64,000 bases of DNA from Anaerolineales bacterium HSG24 (lineage in GTDB: Bacteria > Chloroflexota > Anaerolineae > 4572-78 > J111), in assembly GCA_030377895.1 (NCBI GenBank), contig JAUCGB010000007.1, positions 1 to 64,000 on the forward strand, in the 5' to 3' direction. The notes beneath the pieces are model-generated. The model was not told where the DNA came from and did not search any database. It was given only the letters and a program-made list of their open reading frames with translations. How positions within the stretch are numbered: the first letter of the stretch is position 1; each line of letters starts with the position of its first letter. The position numbers and the translations under genes are program-made. Of the stretch, positions 2,979 through 31,928 are shown piece by piece.

Positions 2979-4409
2979 CTATCGACCCCGCGTCACCAGC
3001 TCAACCGCCGAGATGTGCCCATAATCCTCACACCCCCGCACTATATGCAAAATTTCAGGCAAATGATCCTTCTCCAGCCAAGCCCGTTGATAGTCGCTAT
3101 TGACCTGTAAAACCAAACAATCCCCCCGCACCTCTAGCACATGAAGCCCCGTAAATAACCCATGAAAAACAGCAGGCATAACCTGATGTTCTAAGTGCCA
3201 TAAAGCTTCTTTCCACATGCGCTTATGCTTATCAAGTTCAATCTCGATTTCGGTTTTAGGCTCAGGTTCAACCTCAGGCTCAAGCCAAATAGTAGGCTCA
3301 ATTATCGGCTCAGGCCAAACCGGATATTTACCTCGCCTGAGACGGCTAATAGCCACGCCTACGGGGTTTTTACACCCATTAAAGGGTAGATGTCCAGCCT
3401 CCAAAAATTTGCACCAATCCGCTATCATCTCGTTAGTGGCTCCATCATCATTTAGCAAGATGTCGAACATTGGCGAACTGTGGTCAACGCCCAGTCTTTT
3501 CAAGAGGTTTGCTTTTTCGGAATCGACCTCACCTGTAGCCTCATGAGTGTCTGTGTCTGCGGTTTCATGAGCGTCTACAACTTCATGAGTGCCTGTGTCT
3601 ACGACTTCATGAGCATCTGTGTTTACGACTTCATGAGCATCTGTGTTTACGGCTTCATGAGCGTCTGTGTCTACGGCTTCATGAGCATCTGTGTTTACGG
3701 CTTCATGAGTATCCGTGTCTACGGCTTCATGAACATCCGTGTTTACGACTTCATGAGCATCCGTGTCTACGGCTTCATGGGCATCCGTGTTTACGGCTTC
3801 ATGAGCATCTGTGTTTACGGCTTCATGAGTATCCGTGTCTACGGCTTCATGAGCATCCGTTTCTACGACTTCATGAGCGTCTGTGTCTACGGCTTCATGA
3901 GCGTCCGTGTTTACGACTACGACTTCATGAGCATCCGTGCTTGTAGACTCGGTTGAGCTACCATTCATATCTACCGTTATCGTTTCGATTGGAATTGAAA
4001 TGACTGGGGATGTGGTTTTGGTTATCGTGCCGACTACAACTTCGTAGTTAGGATTAAGTCGGTAGATGTTGGCATGTTCTCGGTCTCCACGGCTAACGAT
4101 TTCGATAATGCCCATCGCCTCCAGACTGTTGATAGTGGGGCTAACCATTGAGCGAGCCATTGGGAACGCGGCATAAGGTATTCCGGCCTCTTGGCGACCA
4201 TATAAAATTGTTTCGTTAAGGATGGTATTTAAAGCTCTGCTTTCGCACTGTCCTAAGAGGGGGTTGATGTGTTGACCAACTACTGCTATTACATCAACAT
4301 TATTTGCGTCGGGGTCTGCAAATGGATTGCAGATTATGGTTAAAGTGTCACTATCGGTAGCGATAGTTTGAATTTCTAACGTTGTTGTGTTACACTGTTG
4401 CTTAATCAA
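2979..4409 (-). CDS. Initiator-like protein: wHTH, His-Glu repeat linker, DnaA domain I-like C-terminus
   Basis: The ORF is open from 4436, but the only good Shine-Dalgarno (GAGGAG) precedes a TTG at 4409, giving MIKQQCNTTT as the start. Residues about 60-145 look like a winged helix ending in ANIYRLNP, a motif shared with the genes at 18036 and 30604. A linker of 17 His-Glu units (mostly TDAHEAVN, 24-bp DNA repeats) follows. The last about 80 residues (WKEALWHLEHQVMPAVF ... LVLQV ... WLEKDHLPEIL) resemble DnaA domain I, which recruits the replicative helicase and partners, and are nearly identical to the C-terminus of the 18036 product. The 5' end is covered by a convergent antisense RNA and an R1 MITE sits just upstream of the promoter. 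A replication-initiator or phage O-like role is inferred from domain order, not proven. Confidence 0.75.
   Translation of the reverse strand: MIKQQCNTTTLEIQTIATDSDTLTIICNPFADPDANNVDVIAVVGQHINPLLGQCESRALNTILNETILYGRQEAGIPYAAFPMARSMVSPTINSLEAMGIIEIVSRGDREHANIYRLNPNYEVVVGTITKTTSPVISIPIETITVDMNGSSTESTSTDAHEVVVVNTDAHEAVDTDAHEVVETDAHEAVDTDTHEAVNTDAHEAVNTDAHEAVDTDAHEVVNTDVHEAVDTDTHEAVNTDAHEAVDTDAHEAVNTDAHEVVNTDAHEVVDTGTHEVVDAHETADTDTHEATGEVDSEKANLLKRLGVDHSSPMFDILLNDDGATNEMIADWCKFLEAGHLPFNGCKNPVGVAISRLRRGKYPVWPEPIIEPTIWLEPEVEPEPKTEIEIELDKHKRMWKEALWHLEHQVMPAVFHGLFTGLHVLEVRGDCLVLQVNSDYQRAWLEKDHLPEILHIVRGCEDYGHISAVELVTRGR
3538..3950. repeat. 24-bp tandem array encoding the HE linker
   Basis: About 17 degenerate units, on the + strand of type GTTTACGGCTTCATGAGCAT followed by CCGT. 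The core TTCATGAGC is close to palindromic around TCATGA. The third codon positions and the Asp/Asn, Ala/Val choices vary while the CATGA core is nearly constant. Confidence 0.9.
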
Positions 4410-4472
4410 ACGAACTCTCCTCGATGTGGAGAACAATAAATTGGGTCAAGCGGTTCGCTTGTCCCTTTTTTT
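4403..4472 (+). ncRNA. Antisense RNA over the start of the 2979-4409 gene (copy 1)
   Basis: Promoter TTGAAT at 4368-4373, 17-bp spacer, TACACT at 4391-4396. The terminator is a hairpin, GGGTCAAGC (4443-4451) with GCTTGTCCC (4457-4465) and one T-T mismatch, followed by seven T. The about 70-nt product is complementary to the Shine-Dalgarno and TTG start of the gene on the other strand. The same promoter-terminator arrangement occurs at 17972-18042 and 30537-30610. Confidence 0.7.
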
Positions 4473-4511: not shown

Positions 4512-4540
4512 ACTTTAACACAGTTTTAGCCAGTTGTCAA
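4512..4540 (-). promoter_or_regulatory. Sense promoter of initiator-like gene, copy 1
   Basis: Reading on the - strand: TTGACA (4535-4540), 17-bp spacer starting ACTGGCTAAAACTGTG, then TAAAGT (4512-4517). It is nearly the same sequence as the promoters at 17784-17812 and 30254-30282. Confidence 0.8.
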
Positions 4541-4564: not shown

Positions 4565-4667
4565 GACTATCAACGTAAGCCGAGACATGTAGCACATGCT
4601 TCAGCCTGTGCCGCACAGTCTAAAGACTGTGTTACGATATTATTTGTCGCACGTTAAGTCGATAGCC
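4565..4667. mobile_element. MITE family R1 with 8-bp target duplication
   Basis: Ends GACTATCAAC (variant of GGCTATCAAC) and GTCGATAGCC. It is flanked by TTTTTAGG at 4557-4564 and 4668-4675. No coding capacity; internal CAGTCTAAAGACTGTG hairpin. Confidence 0.9.
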
Positions 4668-16837: not shown

Positions 16838-16934
16838 GGCTATCAACTTAACGTGAGACAGATAATATCGTAGCACAGTGCGGCACAGGCTGAAGCATGT
16901 GCTACATGTCTCGGCTTACGTTAAGTTGATAGCC
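16838..16934. mobile_element. MITE family R1 with 8-bp target duplication
   Basis: Ends GGCTATCAAC and GTTGATAGCC; flanks TGAAGTAG at 16830-16837 and 16935-16942. No ORF. Confidence 0.92.
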
Positions 16935-17783: not shown

Positions 17784-17812
17784 TTGACAACCGGCTTAGA
17801 CTGTGTTAATCT
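17784..17812 (+). promoter_or_regulatory. Sense promoter of initiator-like gene, copy 2
   Basis: TTGACA, 17-bp spacer, TAATCT. About 225 nt of leader separate it from the ATG at 18036. Confidence 0.8.
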
Positions 17813-17868
17813 AGTCGGAGATTTGCCGCCAACAAATTTAGATAGCTTTGCTAACAAATCAACAACGC

Positions 17869-17965
17869 GGGTTTTTACCTGTGGTCAGTCTAAGTGGAGC
17901 TATCCATATAGATTTGTGCTTGGCGGTACATCTCTGGCCACAGGTGAAAGTCCGTTTTTTGTTTT
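17869..17965 (+). terminator. Leader attenuator, copy 2
   Basis: Arms around CCTGTGGTCAG (17878-17888) and CTGGCCACAGG (17934-17944) extend outward to about 20 bp and end in TCCG followed by TTTTTTGTTTT. Compared with copy 3, two stem positions have changed while pairing is kept. Confidence 0.65.
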
Positions 17966-17971
17966 CGAGAC

Positions 17972-18042
17972 AAAAAAAAGGGCAAGCTGTTCCGCTTGCC
18001 CTGATTTACTGTCTCCCATATAAGGAGAGTCCATAATGCATA
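17972..18042 (-). ncRNA. Antisense RNA over the start of the 18036 gene (copy 2)
   Basis: - strand promoter TTGATT (18071-18076), 16-bp spacer, TATACT (18049-18054), all within the first codons of the gene. Terminator GGGCAAGC/GCTTGCCC (17980-18001) followed by eight U. The about 71-nt RNA is complementary to the AAGGAG and ATG of the sense gene. The first 60 nt of the gene, which contain this promoter, are almost invariant between copies 2 and 3. Confidence 0.75.
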
Positions 18043-19007
18043 CCCCTCAGTATACCCCAAACGACGTAAAAATCAAGCCGTTCAATGGCCAATATAGCGC
18101 GCCGGATATGTTGTTGTTCGCCACCCAGTTTATAATGCCTACCCTGCCAACCGGGAGTTATTTTTCCTTGTTGGCCTTTTTTATTATTCGCCTTGCTGAT
18201 GGCGATACACCTGTTTCCTATCCTGAAATCATCAACAGTACCAATATCAATAGCCCAACCACCGTATATCGCACCGTCAACCGGCTAGAGGAGTTAGGTT
18301 TCATCATCGTACCTAGCCGGAACAAGCGAGATACCGAAAATATTTATCGGCTTAACGCTGCTTTTACCGTAGAGATACCCCAAAAGCATGCCAACGTTTG
18401 GACGGCAAAGGGTACTCCAACAAATGGAGTAGGTACTCCAACAAATGGAGTAGAGGGTACTCCAATAGTTGGAATGAGCGGGCGCTCAGAGCCTACTCCA
18501 ACTATTGAAGTAGGCTCAAGCCCTGATAAAACGGGCGATTCCAGACCTACTCCAATAGTTGGAGTGTTAACTACTATTAATACATGTAATACACGCACAT
18601 GTGATCATGATCACTACTCGCATGAACAAGCGCATGACTCACATGAACAAACGCATGATTCACATGAACAAACGCATGACTCACATGAGCAAGCGCATGA
18701 TTCACATGAACGAGCGCATGATTCACATGAGCGAGCGCATGGCTCGCATGAGAGAGATCATGCACGCATGTGGAAAGAAGCTTTATGGCACTTAGAACAT
18801 CAAGTTATGCCTGCTGTTTTTCAGGGGCTATTTACGGGGCTTTGTGTGCTGGAGGTGCGGGGGGATTGTTTGGTTTTACAGGTTCATAACGAATATCAAC
18901 GGGCTTGGCTGGAGAAGGATCATTTGCCTGAAATTTTGCATATAGTGCAGGAATTTGAGGAATATCAGCATATTACGACCATTGAGGTGGTCTGTAGAAC
19001 AAGATGA
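18036..19007 (+). CDS. Initiator-like protein: wHTH, HE heptads, DnaA domain I-like C-terminus (323 aa)
   Basis: Residues 1-115 form a winged-helix region (start MHTPQYTPNDVKIKPFNGQY; recognition-helix zone PTTVYRTVNRLEELGFIIV; end ENIYRL), nearly identical in its first 40 residues to the 30604 product. Residues about 125-180 contain five TP(T/I)xxV units encoded by palindromic DNA. A linker of 7-residue DSHEQTH units follows. The C-terminal 80 residues (WKEALWHLEHQVMPAVFQGL ... AWLEKDHLPEIL) match the 2979-4409 product and resemble DnaA domain I. Domain order (site-specific wHTH, in-gene binding sites, helicase-recruiting end) parallels lambda O. Expression looks controlled by an attenuator and an antisense RNA. 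A parA/RHH locus lies 2.2 kb downstream. Confidence 0.8.
   Translation: MHTPQYTPNDVKIKPFNGQYSAPDMLLFATQFIMPTLPTGSYFSLLAFFIIRLADGDTPVSYPEIINSTNINSPTTVYRTVNRLEELGFIIVPSRNKRDTENIYRLNAAFTVEIPQKHANVWTAKGTPTNGVGTPTNGVEGTPIVGMSGRSEPTPTIEVGSSPDKTGDSRPTPIVGVLTTINTCNTRTCDHDHYSHEQAHDSHEQTHDSHEQTHDSHEQAHDSHERAHDSHERAHGSHERDHARMWKEALWHLEHQVMPAVFQGLFTGLCVLEVRGDCLVLQVHNEYQRAWLEKDHLPEILHIVQEFEEYQHITTIEVVCRTR
18413..18592. repeat. In-gene iteron-like palindromes plus AT-rich stretch (candidate origin)
   Basis: Five 19-bp imperfect palindromes of type TACTCCA-N5-TGGAGTA start at 18413, 18434, 18458, 18494 and 18548. The arms are kept while the 5-bp centre varies (ACAAA, ATAGT, ACTAT). They are followed at 18566-18592 by an AT-rich stretch with few GC pairs. 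Confidence 0.7.
18620..18760. repeat. 21-bp tandem array encoding HE heptads
   Basis: About seven units of CATGAACAAACGCATGACTC plus A, encoding DSHEQTH and variants. It shares the CATGA core with the 24-bp array at 3538-3950. Confidence 0.9.
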
Positions 19008-19243: not shown

Positions 19244-19346
19244 GGCTATCAACGTAAGCTGAGATATGTAGCACATGCTTCAGCCTGTGCCGCACAGTCT
19301 AAAGACTGTGTTACGATATTATCTGTCACACGTTAAGTTGATAGCC
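19244..19346. mobile_element. MITE family R1 with 8-bp target duplication
   Basis: Ends GGCTATCAAC and GTTGATAGCC; flanks CCGAAGTC at 19236-19243 and 19347-19354. It interrupts another palindrome whose halves are CTTCGACAAGC and CTTGTCGAAGC. Confidence 0.92.
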
Positions 19347-19467
19347 CCGAAGTCTTGTCGAAGCGTGGCTAATGCGTCAGAGATTATGATTTTTAACGAT
19401 AATTGGAGGTCACGCTTGTAGCGTGACAATAACTTGAAAAAGATTATCTGATTGCCAGCGAAACTCA

Positions 19468-20739
19468 TCAAACCTCGCAAAGCATTGGAATTGTAGCATT
19501 AGCCAGTGGCATTATCCCAATACGGGCATCAGAGGATAGTCCCTCTAATGTCTGCCCTAATGCTTCTTCAAGGTCACTCACAGGCATGAGCAATAGTTGA
19601 CGCACAAAATCATCTGGCATATCTGAGAGCAACAGCACCCTCACGTTGGAGGCGTCGCGGGCAATTTGAAACGCCTTATGTGCCCCCACCTGAAATCCTT
19701 CATGCTCAAAGCTATCAAACACATCTTGATAGGAGGTTTTGGTTGATACCCATCGCTCATACTTATCGCTACCAGTTCCCTCTGGGCATGCGGCGGCTAA
19801 AATAATGGTCCCTGCTTTTTTCATTACCTGTGCCGCGTGAGCCAGCCCCTTTTGAGATTGATAGACATTGATATCTTTAGGGTGTCCTCCCGGCGAAACA
19901 ATCATCAGGTCAAATGGCGCATTAACGTCAAATTGATAGATTTTTTTCACCAGAGGGATGCCATGTTCCATCACAATCCTCGGTTCCCCTGCAATAGCCG
20001 TGACGATTTGTTTATTTTCATTTAAGATGACATTCAAGGCAAAATGAATACCGACCATCCGGCCAATTTCCTCGACATCCTGCCGAGCAGGGTTATGGTT
20101 AAAATGCCCTAATTTAGACTGAGCATCGGTCATCATAGCATGATTGTGATTGATAAGTTCTTTGCCAGCCAGTCCAATCGCCGCGCTTTTTACTCCACCA
20201 GAAAAACCCATAAATTGATGTGGTTCCATATTACCAACTACCAACCGAAAATCAGCCTGAGCAAAGTGGCGATTAATCCAAACAGGTGTACCTCGCTCCG
20301 TTTGACCAAGATAAACGAGATTTTCCTTGTCATTAGCATCGTGACATTTAATAGGATAACGAGTTAGAATATCCGGTGGGATAATGGCGGAGTATTCATC
20401 AGGCGACATTGGGGGATGGGTTCCGGTGGCAATAAGTAGGGTGATAGCGTCCGGTGACAAGCCCACACGTTCCAGTCGCTCCAGCAAGGGGGGGAGTAAA
20501 TGGTGATGGGGTACGGGCCGAGTTTTGTCGCTAATGGCAATGGCCGCTGAGCGGGCCTCGGCGAAATCACTCAGATTGTGTTTACCCACTGGCTGGTCTA
20601 AGGCTTGTTTGACCAGTTCCATTGGATTGGGTGCTGCGGGTGTTTCTTTCGGCGCGATGAGGGTCGTTTGCCACATGTCGGGCAAAGAGAAAGTAAGTTT
20701 TGTTTTGCCGTAGGGTATGGTAAATTCGGGCATTGGCAT
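19468..20739 (-). CDS. larA: LarA-like nickel-pincer racemase/epimerase
   Basis: 423 residues, the usual LarA length. The key LarA positions are present with almost the original numbering: SDKTRP (70-75), GTH (His108), MEPH (His174), GGVKSA (Lys184, which carries the pyridinium-thioamide cofactor) and INHNH (His200, nickel ligand). LarA interconverts D- and L-lactate through hydride transfer; related proteins act on other 2-hydroxyacids, so the substrate is open. The cofactor-making larB, larC and larE genes are not in this window. Start ATG at 20739 lacks a strong Shine-Dalgarno; MPEFT at 20733 is an alternative. The gene stands alone, flanked by MITE remnants and the par locus. Confidence 0.85.
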   Translation of the reverse strand: MPMPEFTIPYGKTKLTFSLPDMWQTTLIAPKETPAAPNPMELVKQALDQPVGKHNLSDFAEARSAAIAISDKTRPVPHHHLLPPLLERLERVGLSPDAITLLIATGTHPPMSPDEYSAIIPPDILTRYPIKCHDANDKENLVYLGQTERGTPVWINRHFAQADFRLVVGNMEPHQFMGFSGGVKSAAIGLAGKELINHNHAMMTDAQSKLGHFNHNPARQDVEEIGRMVGIHFALNVILNENKQIVTAIAGEPRIVMEHGIPLVKKIYQFDVNAPFDLMIVSPGGHPKDINVYQSQKGLAHAAQVMKKAGTIILAAACPEGTGSDKYERWVSTKTSYQDVFDSFEHEGFQVGAHKAFQIARDASNVRVLLLSDMPDDFVRQLLLMPVSDLEEALGQTLEGLSSDARIGIMPLANATIPMLCEV

Positions 20740-21116: not shown

Positions 21117-21159
21117 GATTTTTTGATTTGCTTAAACTAGTTTTAGCAGATAATATAGT

Positions 21160-21255
21160 GGTTATCCAGACGGTTATCCAGATGGTTATCCAGATGGTTA
21201 TCCACACGGTTATCCAGATGGTTATCCAGACGGTTATCCAGATGGTTATCCATAA
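21160..21255 (+). repeat. Eight 12-bp iterons upstream of parA
   Basis: Perfect 12-bp phasing of GGTTATCCAGAT/C; the fourth unit reads GGTTATCCACAC and contains the consensus DnaA box TTATCCACA, and the others differ by one base (TTATCCAGA). The array ends within 15 bp of the parA start. It is a candidate partition site for the RHH protein or a DnaA-binding array. Confidence 0.85.
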
Positions 21256-21269
21256 AATGAGTGAATATA

Positions 21270-22031
21270 ATGCGTATAATTACTATTGCAAATCAAAAAG
21301 GCGGGGTCGGTAAAACCACCACTGCCGTCAATTTAGCGGCGGGCTTAGTTCTGCGTGGCAAGCGGGTGCTATTGGTCGATATGGACGCGCAGGCCAACAC
21401 TACCTTAGCCTGTTTGGGTCAAGCCAAGGCCGAGCTAACCTGCTACCATTTATTGAGCGACGATGGAGTCAAACTGTCGCAGGTAATTCACCCAGTCTCG
21501 CAGATGCAGATTGATTTGGTGCCGAGCCACATCAATCTGGCCGCATGTGAGATTGAACTGATCTCGAAAGTGGGCGGGCAAACCATGCTCCGCAGTCGCC
21601 TGCTAGAGGGGGCGACCATCTCTTACGATTTTATCGTGATTGATGCGCCGCCCAGTTTGGGCCTGTTGACCATAAATAGTCTGGCCGCAGCCAATGAGGT
21701 GTTAATTCCGGTCAACGCCAGCGTGTTTGCCCTAGAGGGGATTGGACAGTTGATGAGTACCATTCGGCAGGTACAACGTCACCTCAATCGGCCTGACCTG
21801 AGAATTGGGGGCATGTTGGCTACTTTTGTTGATAATACCAACGTCTCCAAAGATGTCGAGCGGATTATTCGGCAACAGTTCGCCGAGTATGTCTTTAAGA
21901 CGGCCATCCCTAAAAACGTGGCGATTGAGGAGGCTCACTCTCATCGAGAGAGTATTTTCAATCATGACCTTGAGTCAAAAGGGGCAGTTGCCTATCAAAA
22001 ACTAGTTGAGGAGATATTACAGCGTGGCTAA
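21270..22031 (+). CDS. parA: ParA-type partition ATPase
   Basis: Deviant Walker A KGGVGKTT near residue 10, VDMDAQANTT, and DFIVIDAPPSLG (Walker B) place it among Soj/ParA ATPases (about 253 aa, no N-terminal HTH). It uses ATP-dependent nonspecific DNA binding to move partition complexes. ATG at 21270 is chosen; a GTG at 21261 is in frame. The 3' end overlaps the following RHH gene by 8 bp, so the two are translationally coupled. Preceded directly by the iterons. The absence of a ParB-type gene and the presence of an RHH partner point to a type Ib-like cassette, though the ATPase itself looks like the chromosomal/Ia-short class. Confidence 0.9.
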   Translation: MRIITIANQKGGVGKTTTAVNLAAGLVLRGKRVLLVDMDAQANTTLACLGQAKAELTCYHLLSDDGVKLSQVIHPVSQMQIDLVPSHINLAACEIELISKVGGQTMLRSRLLEGATISYDFIVIDAPPSLGLLTINSLAAANEVLIPVNASVFALEGIGQLMSTIRQVQRHLNRPDLRIGGMLATFVDNTNVSKDVERIIRQQFAEYVFKTAIPKNVAIEEAHSHRESIFNHDLESKGAVAYQKLVEEILQRG

Positions 22032-22344
22032 GAAAACATCAGGTGTCTCGGATATCTACGAACCAACCGCCGTTTTTTTTCAATCGCCCCCGGAACCCGA
22101 ACCGACCGCAGAGGACGAGCCAACAACACCTAAACCGGAGCGGAAGAAACGAAAGGATGCAACCGGACGGAAGAAAGATTATCATAAAAACAGTCGCATG
22201 GTCGCAACTCGATTGCCTAACGACATCGTCGAACAAATTCGAGCTATAGCCGAGTCTGATAATCTTTCGGTCAGTGCATGGCTCGGCGCGCTCATCTTGC
22301 GCGAACTTAAGGCGATTGATTCACCCGAATCGCCGAATTGCTGA
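22024..22344 (+). CDS. RHH-type partition/centromere-binding partner of ParA
   Basis: GTG start overlapping the parA stop, with GAGGAG 8 nt upstream; 106 residues. The N-terminal half is disordered and charged (EPEPTAEDEPTTPKPERKKR). Residues about 60-95 (RMVATRLPNDIVEQIRAIAE then LSVSAWLGALILREL) have the ribbon-helix-helix pattern of CopG/ParG proteins. Such proteins bind direct-repeat centromeres upstream of their operon and stimulate ParA, which fits the eight 12-bp repeats. Confidence 0.75.
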   Translation: MAKKTSGVSDIYEPTAVFFQSPPEPEPTAEDEPTTPKPERKKRKDATGRKKDYHKNSRMVATRLPNDIVEQIRAIAESDNLSVSAWLGALILRELKAIDSPESPNC

Positions 22345-25366: not shown

Positions 25367-25544
25367 GGCTACCAACTTAACGTGCGACAGATAATATCGT
25401 AACACAGTCTTTAGACTGTGCGGCACAGGCTGAAGCATGTGCTACATGTCTCGGCTTACATTGGTAGTCCTGTGATCACCTACCCGCAAGTTCCAAACTT
25501 GCGGGTAGGTAACTGACATATATCACTACTTCTGCACCACTACC
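25367..25544. mobile_element. R1 MITE joined to a GGTAGT-framed element
   Basis: 25367-25462 is an R1 copy (GGCTACCAAC end) whose right end runs directly into GGTAGTCC of a second element (25463-25544) with a CTACCCGCAAG core hairpin and CACTACC end. No target duplication remains. Confidence 0.7.
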
Positions 25545-25583
25545 GTCTCATTTACCCATTTGGTCGTCAAAATTCATCTTCTG

Positions 25584-26423
25584 ATGGGTATTTTATATTT
25601 AGTTTCAACGCCGTTAGGAAATCTTGAGGATATAACTTTTCGAGCCGTGAAAGTCCTGCGCGAAGTGGGCTGTATCGCCAGCGAGGACACTCGCACCACA
25701 GGTCGGTTACTGGCTCATTTTGAGATAAAAACGAACCTCATAAGCTACCATGAGCATAGCAAACCTCATCAACTCAAACGTATTGTAGACATGCTGACCG
25801 AGCATGATGTGGCTCTCGTCTCCGAGGCCGGGACTCCTTTGCTCTCTGACCCCGGCTATAAATTGGTGCGAGCCACTATTGAGCATGGTATCGAAGTGGT
25901 GGCAATTCCGGGCGCGAGCGCGCTCTTGACGGCCTTGCCGGTGAGTGGATTGCCAACAGATCGGTTTCTGTTTATGGGCTTTTTGCCCCGAAAATCAGCC
26001 GCTCGACGAACCCTGTTTGAGCAGTTGACCGCGCAATCGGCGACCCTAGTTTTTTACGAATCGCCGCATCGGTTGCAGGCCAGTTTGCTCGACATGGCGA
26101 CGGTATTCGGCGCAGAGCGACAAATTGCGATCTGTCGGGAGTTGACCAAACTGCATGAGGAGATTTGGCGGGGCACACTTGGTCAGGCTGGTGAGGTATG
26201 GGCCGAGCGCACACTGCGCGGGGAGTTTACTTTGGTGGTGGATGGCGCGCCCGAAGAGGAAATTTGGAGCGAAGAGGCTGTCCAGCAAGCTTTGGTCGCC
26301 GCCATGACCGGTGGTTTGGCCCGTAAAGACGCGGTCAAACAGGTCAGGCAACAAAGCGGTTGGCCCAAACGAGAAGTCTATGCCCTCGCCGAGCGGGTCA
26401 AGCGGTGCCGGGTAAAATGGTGA
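25584..26423 (+). CDS. rsmI: 16S rRNA (cytidine1402-2'-O)-methyltransferase RsmI
   Basis: MGILYLVSTPLGNLEDITFR at the start is the family signature. Further motifs are SEDTRTTGRLL, HEHSKP, LVSEAGTPLLSDPG and IPGASALLTALPVSGL for AdoMet binding and the tetrapyrrole-methylase fold. About 279 residues, standard length. It methylates the ribose of C1402 in the decoding centre of 16S rRNA. The ATG at 25584 fits family alignments better than an upstream TTG at 25560. Monocistronic, surrounded by repeats. Confidence 0.93.
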   Translation: MGILYLVSTPLGNLEDITFRAVKVLREVGCIASEDTRTTGRLLAHFEIKTNLISYHEHSKPHQLKRIVDMLTEHDVALVSEAGTPLLSDPGYKLVRATIEHGIEVVAIPGASALLTALPVSGLPTDRFLFMGFLPRKSAARRTLFEQLTAQSATLVFYESPHRLQASLLDMATVFGAERQIAICRELTKLHEEIWRGTLGQAGEVWAERTLRGEFTLVVDGAPEEEIWSEEAVQQALVAAMTGGLARKDAVKQVRQQSGWPKREVYALAERVKRCRVKW

Positions 26424-30145: not shown

Positions 30146-30253
30146 AAAATCCTGTTCCTCAGGTTATTGTCACGCTACAAGCGTCACCTCCAATTATCGT
30201 AGGTGACGCTTGTAGCGTCACGTATACCCCAAACGACGTAAATCGAGCGAATC

Positions 30254-30282
30254 TTGACAACCGGCTTAGGCTGTGTTAAAGT
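30254..30282 (+). promoter_or_regulatory. Sense promoter of initiator-like gene, copy 3
   Basis: TTGACA, 17-bp spacer (ACCGGCTTAGGCTGTGT), TAAAGT. Just before it, 30224-30243 repeats 20 nt of the 5' end of the gene (GTATACCCCAAACGACGTAA). Confidence 0.8.
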
Positions 30283-30329
30283 AGAGCCAACATTCGTACC
30301 GCCAATTCTAATGTTCGAGTTACTCAAAA

Positions 30330-30411
30330 GGCTACCAACTTAACGTGCGACAGATAATATCGTAACACAATCTTTAGACTGTGCTACGTGTCTCGGCTTA
30401 CGTTGATAGCC
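30330..30411. mobile_element. MITE family R1 inserted in the leader of copy 3
   Basis: Ends GGCTACCAAC and GTTGATAGCC; flanks ACTCAAAA at 30322-30329 and 30412-30419. It is 82 bp and lies between the sense promoter and the attenuator. Confidence 0.93.
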
Positions 30412-30436
30412 ACTCAAAACAAATATGTCAACAATA

Positions 30437-30533
30437 CGGATTTTAGCCTGTGGTTAGTGCAAATAAATGAGTAACATTTATTGGTACTTGGCGGTACGAC
30501 GCTGACCACAGGTAAAAGTCCGTTTTTGTTTTC
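30437..30533 (+). terminator. Leader attenuator, copy 3
   Basis: CGGATTTTAGCCTGTGGTTAG (21-nt arm, 30437-30457) pairs with the arm at 30502-30522 ending AAAAGTCCG, followed by TTTTTGTTTT. Pairing is kept relative to copy 2 despite changes. Confidence 0.65.
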
Positions 30534-30536
30534 GGG

Positions 30537-30610
30537 AAAAAAAAAAGGGCAAGCCGTTTTGCTTGCCCTGATTTACTGTCTCCCAATTAAGGAGTGTTAA
30601 AAAATGTATG
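30537..30610 (-). ncRNA. Antisense RNA over the start of the 30604 gene (copy 3)
   Basis: - strand promoter TTGATT (30639-30644), 16-bp spacer, TATACT (30617-30622). Terminator GGGCAAGC/GCTTGCCC (30547-30568) with a loop different from copy 2, then ten U. Covers AAGGAG and ATG of the sense gene. Confidence 0.75.
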
Positions 30611-31386
30611 ACCCTCAGTATACCCCAAACGACGTAAAAATCAAGCCGTTCAATGGCCAATATAGCGCGCCAGATATGTTGTTGTTCGCCACCCAGTTTA
30701 TAATGCCTACCCTGCCAACCGCAAACTGTTTTGCGCTGTTGGCTTTTTTTATTGGTCGCTTGCCTCCAGAGGGGGCGGGTGTGAGCTACAAGGAGATTGT
30801 TGCTCGGACATGTATAAAGAGTAATAAAACAGCCTACGTGACAGTTAATCGGTTAGATGAATTTGAGATATTATTGATTGACAGCCGGAATAAGCGAGAT
30901 GCCGAAAATATTTATCGGCTTAACCCAGAGTTTGCGCTGACAATGCCTCAAAAAGATGCCGCTTATTGGCTCGACAGGGTGTGTCATGAAGACGCTGTCG
31001 CTGATGATGATGAGTACATTGGGCTGAACCAAGTTGACGAAATGGGGGGAGTAGAGTTTGAACATTTTATTGCTAAAGTTCTGGCTCATAGGGGGTATAA
31101 CGATGTACATGTGACGCAAGGTTCAAACGATTTAGGTGTAGATATTACAGCTACAAAAGATGGGATACGGTGGGCCATACAGGCCAAACGGTATAAATCC
31201 CCCATATCACGCCGTGCCATCAGTGATGTAGTAGGAGGCGTAGCCTATTATAAATGCGATAGGGCTATGGTGATAACCAATAGCACCTTGAGAAAGCCCG
31301 CTCGTATCCTCGCCCAAATCAATGGTTGCAGGGTAGTTGATAGGGATGAGCTTCTTGAATGGGTGACGGATTATCATAATGTGTGA
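30604..31386 (+). CDS. wHTH protein fused to an Mrr-type nuclease domain (260 aa)
   Basis: Residues 1-115 are the same winged-helix module as in the 18036 gene; the first about 110 nt are nearly identical (YDPQYTPNDVKIKPFNGQYS). The C-terminal half (about 150-260) is an Mrr_cat/PD-(D/E)XK endonuclease: FEHFIAKVLAHRGY, SNDLGVDITA (catalytic Asp), WAIQAKRY (QxK variant) and AISDVVGGVAYYKCDRAMVI. Mrr-type domains cleave modified or foreign DNA. Here one is attached to the DNA-binding part of an initiator family and under the same antisense/attenuator control. A replicon-exclusion or defence role is inferred. Confidence 0.8.
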   Translation: MYDPQYTPNDVKIKPFNGQYSAPDMLLFATQFIMPTLPTANCFALLAFFIGRLPPEGAGVSYKEIVARTCIKSNKTAYVTVNRLDEFEILLIDSRNKRDAENIYRLNPEFALTMPQKDAAYWLDRVCHEDAVADDDEYIGLNQVDEMGGVEFEHFIAKVLAHRGYNDVHVTQGSNDLGVDITATKDGIRWAIQAKRYKSPISRRAISDVVGGVAYYKCDRAMVITNSTLRKPARILAQINGCRVVDRDELLEWVTDYHNV

Positions 31387-31496: not shown

Positions 31497-31928
31497 TTGA
31501 ACTCTGAAAAAAAGACCGCAACAACCTTGGAAGATATAAAGATAAATGTGAAGATAAAACTCTCAGCATTATGGATTACTGTGATGTCTTCATATATATA
31601 TAATGATATTTTCGATTTATATAAGCCAGGTGAAATGGCGCATATAATGGCGGGAAATATGGGGCCTTTCCCAACGACTCAAGGAGCGTTATTGACAGCT
31701 ATGATACTGATGACGATTCCGACTCTAATGATTTTCCTGTCCCTGACATTGAAGGCTCAAGCGAATCGCTGGACAAACATCATCGTAGGTATATTATATA
31801 TTGTTGTTGCGATAAGTAACGTAATAGGAGAGGTTTGGGCTTTTTATATATTTGGTAATATTGTACAAGTTTTGCTTCTTTTACTAATTGTCGGGTATGC
31901 ATGGAAGTGGCCTAAACAGGAAGCATGA
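31497..31928 (+). CDS. DUF6326-like four-helix membrane protein
   Basis: TTG start at 31497 with AAAGGA upstream. Four membrane segments; motifs ALWITVMSSYIYNDIFDLY, PGEMAHIMAG and AFYIFGN resemble small DUF6326-type proteins. About 143 aa. Function unknown. AT-rich gene compared with the next one. Confidence 0.65.
   Translation: MNSEKKTATTLEDIKINVKIKLSALWITVMSSYIYNDIFDLYKPGEMAHIMAGNMGPFPTTQGALLTAMILMTIPTLMIFLSLTLKAQANRWTNIIVGILYIVVAISNVIGEVWAFYIFGNIVQVLLLLLIVGYAWKWPKQEA

Follow-up and report, generated by a model that had tools for sequence, protein, structure and literature searches.

Initiator-like loci with predicted antisense RNAs over the translation start in an Anaerolineales bacterium

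The window examined, a stretch of 64,000 nucleotides from contig JAUCGB010000007.1 of Anaerolineales bacterium HSG24, contains three related genes, designated here c1, c2 and c3. The c2 gene (coordinates 18036 to 19007, + strand) encodes an initiator-like protein of 323 aa with an HTH_36-type winged helix (wHTH), a repeat region and a C-terminus corresponding to DnaA domain I. The initiator-like c1 gene (2979 to 4409, - strand), which starts with a TTG codon at 4409 (the mechanically called ORF runs from 4436), ends in the same type of domain, and the C-terminal domains of c1 and c2 are 80% identical. The 260 aa product of c3 (30604 to 31386, + strand) has the N-terminal wHTH region seen in c2, fused to an Mrr-type nuclease domain (Mrr_cat, E=1.7e-28), in agreement with an earlier description of this copy as a nuclease variant under the shared control region.

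The HTH_36 domain was found in all five homologues of an alignment that includes c2 (A7; best E 2.6e-14), and full-length c2 gave a weak match when searched singly (E=0.012). The N-termini also match PHROG families named replication initiation and O-like. They gave no match to RepA_N, no RepC match to the three proteins was obtained in Pfam or NCBIfam, peptide patterns of the N-terminus found nothing in the genome and viral collections, and there was no match in plasmid and phage records. The AlphaFold model of the N-terminal domain has a pLDDT of 36. The C-terminus was assigned to DnaA domain I by profile comparison (4tps, E=3e-13), with which the fold also agrees; this is the only DnaA domain present, as the AAA+ domain and domain IV are absent. 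Replacement of the chromosomal DnaA by these initiators was considered and rejected, as a regular dnaA gene is present on another contig (C57). The dN/dS values of ~0.37 for the C-terminus of c1/c2 and ~0.16 for the N-terminus of c2/c3, where dS is saturated, indicate purifying selection on the proteins.

Repeats were found within the coding regions of c1 and c2. Those in c2 (18413 to 18762, + strand) include five palindromes resembling TACTCCAAN5TGGAGTA at 18413-18566, as many matches being found in 0 of 100 shuffled sequences, and 21-bp direct repeats at 18595-18762, while c1 carries 24-bp direct repeats. On the staphylococcal plasmid pSK41, the boxes bound by the initiator lie inside rep (PMC5703833), and by this parallel the repeats in c1 and c2 are candidate origin sites, those of c2 being candidate iterons.

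The initial annotation had placed an antisense RNA at each of the three loci, and the promoters, terminators and positions given for these RNAs agree with a direct reading of the sequence. At c2, an antisense promoter within the gene (TTGATT-16-TATACT; 18049 to 18076, - strand; 9/12) precedes a predicted RNA of ~68 nt (17972 to 18040, - strand) that ends at an intrinsic terminator with a 9-bp stem and a T8 tail (17972 to 18002, - strand). This RNA spans the Shine-Dalgarno (SD) sequence at 18022-18027 and the ATG at 18036. At c3, a promoter of the same sequence and score (30617 to 30644, - strand) precedes a predicted RNA at 30537 to 30608 (- strand; terminator at 30569-30537), and at c1 the promoter TTGAAT-17-TACACT (4368 to 4396, + strand; 8/12) precedes a predicted RNA at 4405 to 4472 (+ strand; terminator at 4443-4472). 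The SD and the start codon fall within the predicted RNA in 3/3 cases, as had been claimed, and the best antisense -35/-10 pair puts the TSS at offset +4 from the start codon in each. The terminators lie in the leaders with the T-tract directed away from the gene (AGGGCAAGCGGAACAGCTTGCCCT-T7G in c2, AGGGCAAGCAAAACGGCTTGCCCT-T8 in c3 and GGGTCAAGCGGTTCGCTTGTCCC-T7 in c1). The stems in c2 and c3 are perfect over 9 bp and followed by T8-T9, that in c1 is kept with one U.U mismatch, and an uninterrupted minus-strand tail of T7-T9 is retained in all three copies.

The frequency of these elements was examined in a sample of 239 ORFs (minimum length 120 aa) from 408 kb of the genome, made up of the window and the starts of 20 contigs. 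An antisense terminator no more than 150 nt upstream of the ORF start was found for five ORFs, three of which are c1, c2 and c3, leaving 2 among the other ~236. The antisense promoter motif is common by itself, as scores of at least 8/12 were found in 54 of the 239 ORFs (23%) and 9/12 in 13, and the c1 promoter (8/12) was not picked up by a consensus scan. The antisense promoters thus appear weak as motifs, that of c1 the weakest, and the case for them is made by positional conservation together with the terminator, not by the motif score. As c1, c2 and c3 are homologous, their shared layout represents one lineage rather than three independent events; on these counts, the placement of antisense terminators in the three leaders is nevertheless not background.

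The three predicted antisense RNAs form more stable folds than shuffled sequences, with z values of -5.0, -4.7 and -2.8. That stems are kept while loops differ holds for c2 and c3, in which the terminator stems are identical and the loop differs at 3/6 positions. The check for covariation that had been suggested gave a divided result, with one double change in c1 (pair 79/102 of alignment A1, A-U in c2/c3 and G-C in c1) and one pair broken to U.U in c1 (82/99), and the covariation visible in three related sequences is modest. No Rfam family matched above its gathering score, and a covariance model detected no homologue of these RNAs, only unrelated terminators, in 298 genomes of the class.

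The sense promoters are also related. That of c2 (TTGACAACCGGCTTAGACTGTGTTAATCT; 17784 to 17812, + strand; a 25-bp pattern) has counterparts with the form TTGACA-17-TAAAGT at c3 (30254 to 30282, + strand) and c1 (4512 to 4540, - strand). The family, TTGACAAC[C/T]GGCT..CTGTGTTA, is mismatch-free only at these three genes in the 4.04-Mb draft genome; it has no exact match in the genome and viral contig collections, and the terminator pattern was not found in the viral contigs.

Between the sense promoter and the start codon of c2 and c3 lies a further element, which the initial annotation had missed, along with the want of one in c1. An intrinsic terminator in the sense direction, a candidate attenuator, is located at 17868 to 17965 (+ strand) in c2, where a stem of ~21 bp is followed by TTTTTTGTTTT, and at 30437 to 30532 (+ strand) in c3. 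The hairpin of both copies has the form CGG[G/A]UUUU..CCUGUGGU[C/U]AG / CUG[G/A]CCACAGGU.AAAGUCCG, directly followed by U5-6GU4. A 5' arm of the leader that is complementary to the terminator apex (17815 to 17853 in c2 and 30284 to 30329 in c3, both + strand) is a candidate antiterminator. The duplex of arm and apex is predicted at -49.6 kcal/mol in c2 and -37.0 kcal/mol in c3, values that none of 2000 shuffles reached in either copy. Both arm and apex have diverged between the copies, yet each arm still matches its own apex, and pairing across the copies is weaker (-28). The two leaders thus have what is plausibly the layout of a terminator/antiterminator switch, though the MFE structures are lopsided, favouring the antiterminator in c2 and the terminator in c3. 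No such element is present in the c1 leader.

The apex holds UUGGCG and the 5' arm CGCCAA. In the Inc RNA system of ColIb-P9, the partner motif acts on a repZ pseudoknot, whereas at c2 and c3 it is situated on the 5' side and its target would be a terminator. UUGGCG is the motif given for the Inc RNA target of ColIb-P9 (IncI-alpha) in a title cited in PMC10724649, and common to both cases is UUGGCG in a leader hairpin region with CGCCAA elsewhere in that leader. A literature search with UUGGCG returned chance matches only, and the resemblance is probably convergence.

In the c3 leader, an 82-bp MITE-like repeat (30330 to 30411) lies between the arm and the terminator, flanked by the 8-bp target duplication ACTCAAAA (30322-30329 and 30412-30419). 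Further copies of this family, with GGCTATCAACTTAACG ends, are found at 4567-4667, 16838-16922, 19246-19347 and 25367-25470.

The DNA of c2 and c3 had been described as almost identical exactly over the antisense promoter. This needs correction, as the near-identical block covers codons 4-39 and reaches far past the promoter. Over these 36 codons there is a single synonymous change, whereas identity collapses from codon 40, where synonymous sites are saturated (dS ~2.5), and the leaders are ~88% identical. Recent gene conversion between c2 and c3 is the simplest reading of this pattern. A 21-bp duplicate of the opening stretch of the coding block (GTATACCCCAAACGACGTAAA) is present at 30225-30245, upstream of the c3 sense promoter, and is likely a recombination scar.

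A profile search with the N-terminus identified relatives in 15 further genomes within the class. In four of the five closest homologues, the leader carries an antisense promoter and, beyond it, an antisense terminator; these are the homologues of G214, G161 and G143 (TTGACA-17-TACCAT and a terminator with a 12-bp stem) and of G030 (TTGACA-17-TATTCT and an 11-bp stem). The fifth, G097, has kept the G030-type promoter, displaced to -256. Such units occur at ~1-3% of control ORFs, and none was seen at 11 more distant loci (L142-L151 and L153). As G214, G161 and G143 are closely related (g77 genomes), they count as about one event, giving approximately two independent lineages overall. The units are ~70-190 nt upstream of the start, clear of the SD, and the mechanism there would differ. 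They are supportive of antisense control but not conclusive. The antisense -10 in the leaders from G214, G161 and G143 (L136, L137 and L138) is overlapped by an inverted repeat (GGAGTGCGCTACCAT / ATGGTAGCGCATCTCC), which may represent two facing promoters or an operator.

The leader hairpin could alternatively be an element of the sense strand only, affecting mRNA stability or the masking and exposure of the SD, with the -35/-10 match arising by coincidence in a conserved or converted coding stretch. The hairpin, which is symmetric, folds in the sense strand as well, with an outer stem (GAGACA/UGUCUC) in competition with one that sequesters the SD, and a promoter motif so widespread among ORFs, which in c2 and c3 sits inside the 36-codon block, could be fortuitous. 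However, this would leave unaccounted for the T7-T9 tail on the minus strand in 3/3 copies, in a placement that is rare elsewhere, the conserved position of the c1 antisense promoter despite strong divergence of the protein, and the unrelated antisense units in the leaders of close homologues. In addition, c1 is without the sense attenuator but keeps the A/T run and hairpin beside the SD, and the T-tract was therefore assigned to the antisense terminator. A sense-strand role alone is thus considered unlikely. Antisense control, as proposed in the initial annotation, is the best reading of the conserved terminator, the promoter position, the coverage of SD and start codon, the initiator-type proteins and the units in homologues, though the promoter motif itself adds little.

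The 71-kb contig is of ordinary composition and not distinguishable from other contigs. It carries the only copy of rsmI in the genome, and several neighbouring genes have homologues in a genome of the same genus (G001), where the PorU-like gene and its neighbour stand together without c2, larA or parA adjoining. No homologue of the c2 protein was found in G001, where only DnaA domain I was matched, and gene content at the corresponding sites differs. These features fit a chromosome or chromid into which initiator loci have been inserted, and the chromosomal location suggested earlier is supported but not proven. The contig may instead be a plasmid, given the presence of parA, a small gene and a repeat array at 21148-22344. 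In a check for circularity, the contig ends showed no overlap. The parA and small gene are ~2-3 kb from c2 and form a separate unit, and a repA-repB-repC operon is absent from all three loci. The array consists of nine 12-bp repeats (GGTTATCCAnnn / GGTTATCCA) directly upstream of parA and the small gene that follows it; one repeat holds a perfect DnaA box (TTATCCACA), and the array is centromere-like or origin-like.

Other features of the window were recorded. The rsmI gene (25560-26423) is apart from the dnaA neighbourhood (contig C57) conserved in four relatives, indicating a rearrangement in this genome. The segment 20740-20910 matches dozens of places in G001 with 81-98% identity and is an abundant dispersed repeat, and a large tandem array with 126/126/167-bp spacing lies inside ORFs at 1491-2754.

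The differing gene content in G001, the repeat inserted into the c3 leader and the loss of the initiator C-terminus in c3 would be expected if the loci were left over from integrated plasmids or phages and now in decay, with fossil control elements. This appears improbable, as the ORFs are intact with dN/dS well under 1, and the RNA stems have been kept while the loops drift. Still less probable is that the minus-strand terminators merely stop stray read-through from convergent downstream genes with no dedicated RNA, for although a larA-like gene (19468-20739, - strand) converges on c2, no long gene faces c3 from directly downstream (that at 31497-31928 has the orientation of c3), and a leader, reached only once the entire gene has been read through, is a poor site for insulation.

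Plasmids control copy number by antisense RNAs directed against the initiator message. Among the closest parallels are the staphylococcal plasmids pSK41 and pPR9, with initiators under antisense RNAI, that of pPR9 being of the HTH_36 type (pfam13730) (PMC5703833). Like the loci described here, they have an N-terminal wHTH and a separate C-terminal domain, with exchange of the N-terminal part as a module while the control region is kept; they also have initiator boxes in the central part of rep, for which the in-gene repeats here are candidate counterparts, and an antisense RNA of ~83 nt, forming two stem-loops and controlling the translation of Rep, which the predicted RNAs resemble (PMC5703833). 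They differ in being plasmid-borne, in a C-terminus not described as DnaA domain I, and in the action of RNAI, which pairs ~100 nt ahead of the translation start and brings about a stem that masks the SD (PMC5703833). RNAII of pMV158 and the RNAs of pC194-pUB110 are likewise short, with a 5' tail and terminator hairpin at the rep translation-initiation region, but RNAII pairs at a position immediately 5' to the initiation signals, and these are rolling-circle plasmids with unrelated Reps (PMC4485353, PMC5703833). The repABC replicons have a ctRNA of 55-59 nt within the leader of repC, which can adopt alternative structures that include an intrinsic terminator, and they have an origin inside repC and several loci per genome, on secondary chromosomes too; however, repC is in an operon with repA/repB, and the ctRNA itself induces the terminator (PMC3155836, PMC10194956). 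A leader terminator with a competing pre-emptor arm, predicted here for c2 and c3 only, is known from pT181 and pIP501, where termination results from pairing of the antisense RNA to the leader (PMC5703833). In c2 and c3 the attenuator precedes the region of the predicted antisense RNA, so that coupling of the pT181 type is not evident and the geometry is against it.

From the architecture, terminators, complementarities and domain identities, which can be read directly from the DNA, we infer transcription, pairing, repression and origin function as follows. The promoter just inside the gene would produce a short constitutive RNA of ~70 nt ending at the intrinsic terminator in the leader. By pairing with the sense message across the SD and start codon, this RNA would block initiator translation in proportion to the number of gene copies. 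The messages of c2 and c3 would first have to pass an intrinsic terminator ~70 nt before the start codon, with the 5' leader arm competing for its apex as an antiterminator. The repeats within the gene would be bound by the winged helix of the initiator encoded there, with recruitment of the replication machinery falling to the C-terminal DnaA domain I, while in c3 the C-terminus would have been swapped for an Mrr-type nuclease and the control region retained. Plasmid- or phage-type initiator loci under plasmid-type RNA control, residing in a chromosome or chromid, are the interpretation that we hold to be reasonably probable. It is doubtful that the loci constitute a multicopy family of chromosomal initiators in which leader attenuation is stacked on antisense RNA over the start codon, and one copy of which, turned into a nuclease with the initiator-type DNA-binding domain, would allow related incoming replicons to be recognised and cut, itself subject to the shared copy-number-sensing control.

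A search for papers joining Chloroflexi, plasmid replication and antisense RNA found nothing in the library covered. The arrangement had been put forward as undescribed; an antisense-controlled HTH_36 initiator is known on pPR9 (PMC5703833), and it is the combination of a multicopy family, a nuclease-fused copy and a predicted second RNA switch that appears undescribed. If confirmed, it would widen the range of plasmid-style RNA copy control to include a new type of initiator, built from an HTH_36 winged helix and DnaA domain I, in a group that has been little studied. With three paralogues in the same cell, whose loops have drifted apart, the loci would provide a test bed for the evolution of specificity between antisense RNA and target, and they would supply candidate control elements for vectors in bacteria for which few exist.
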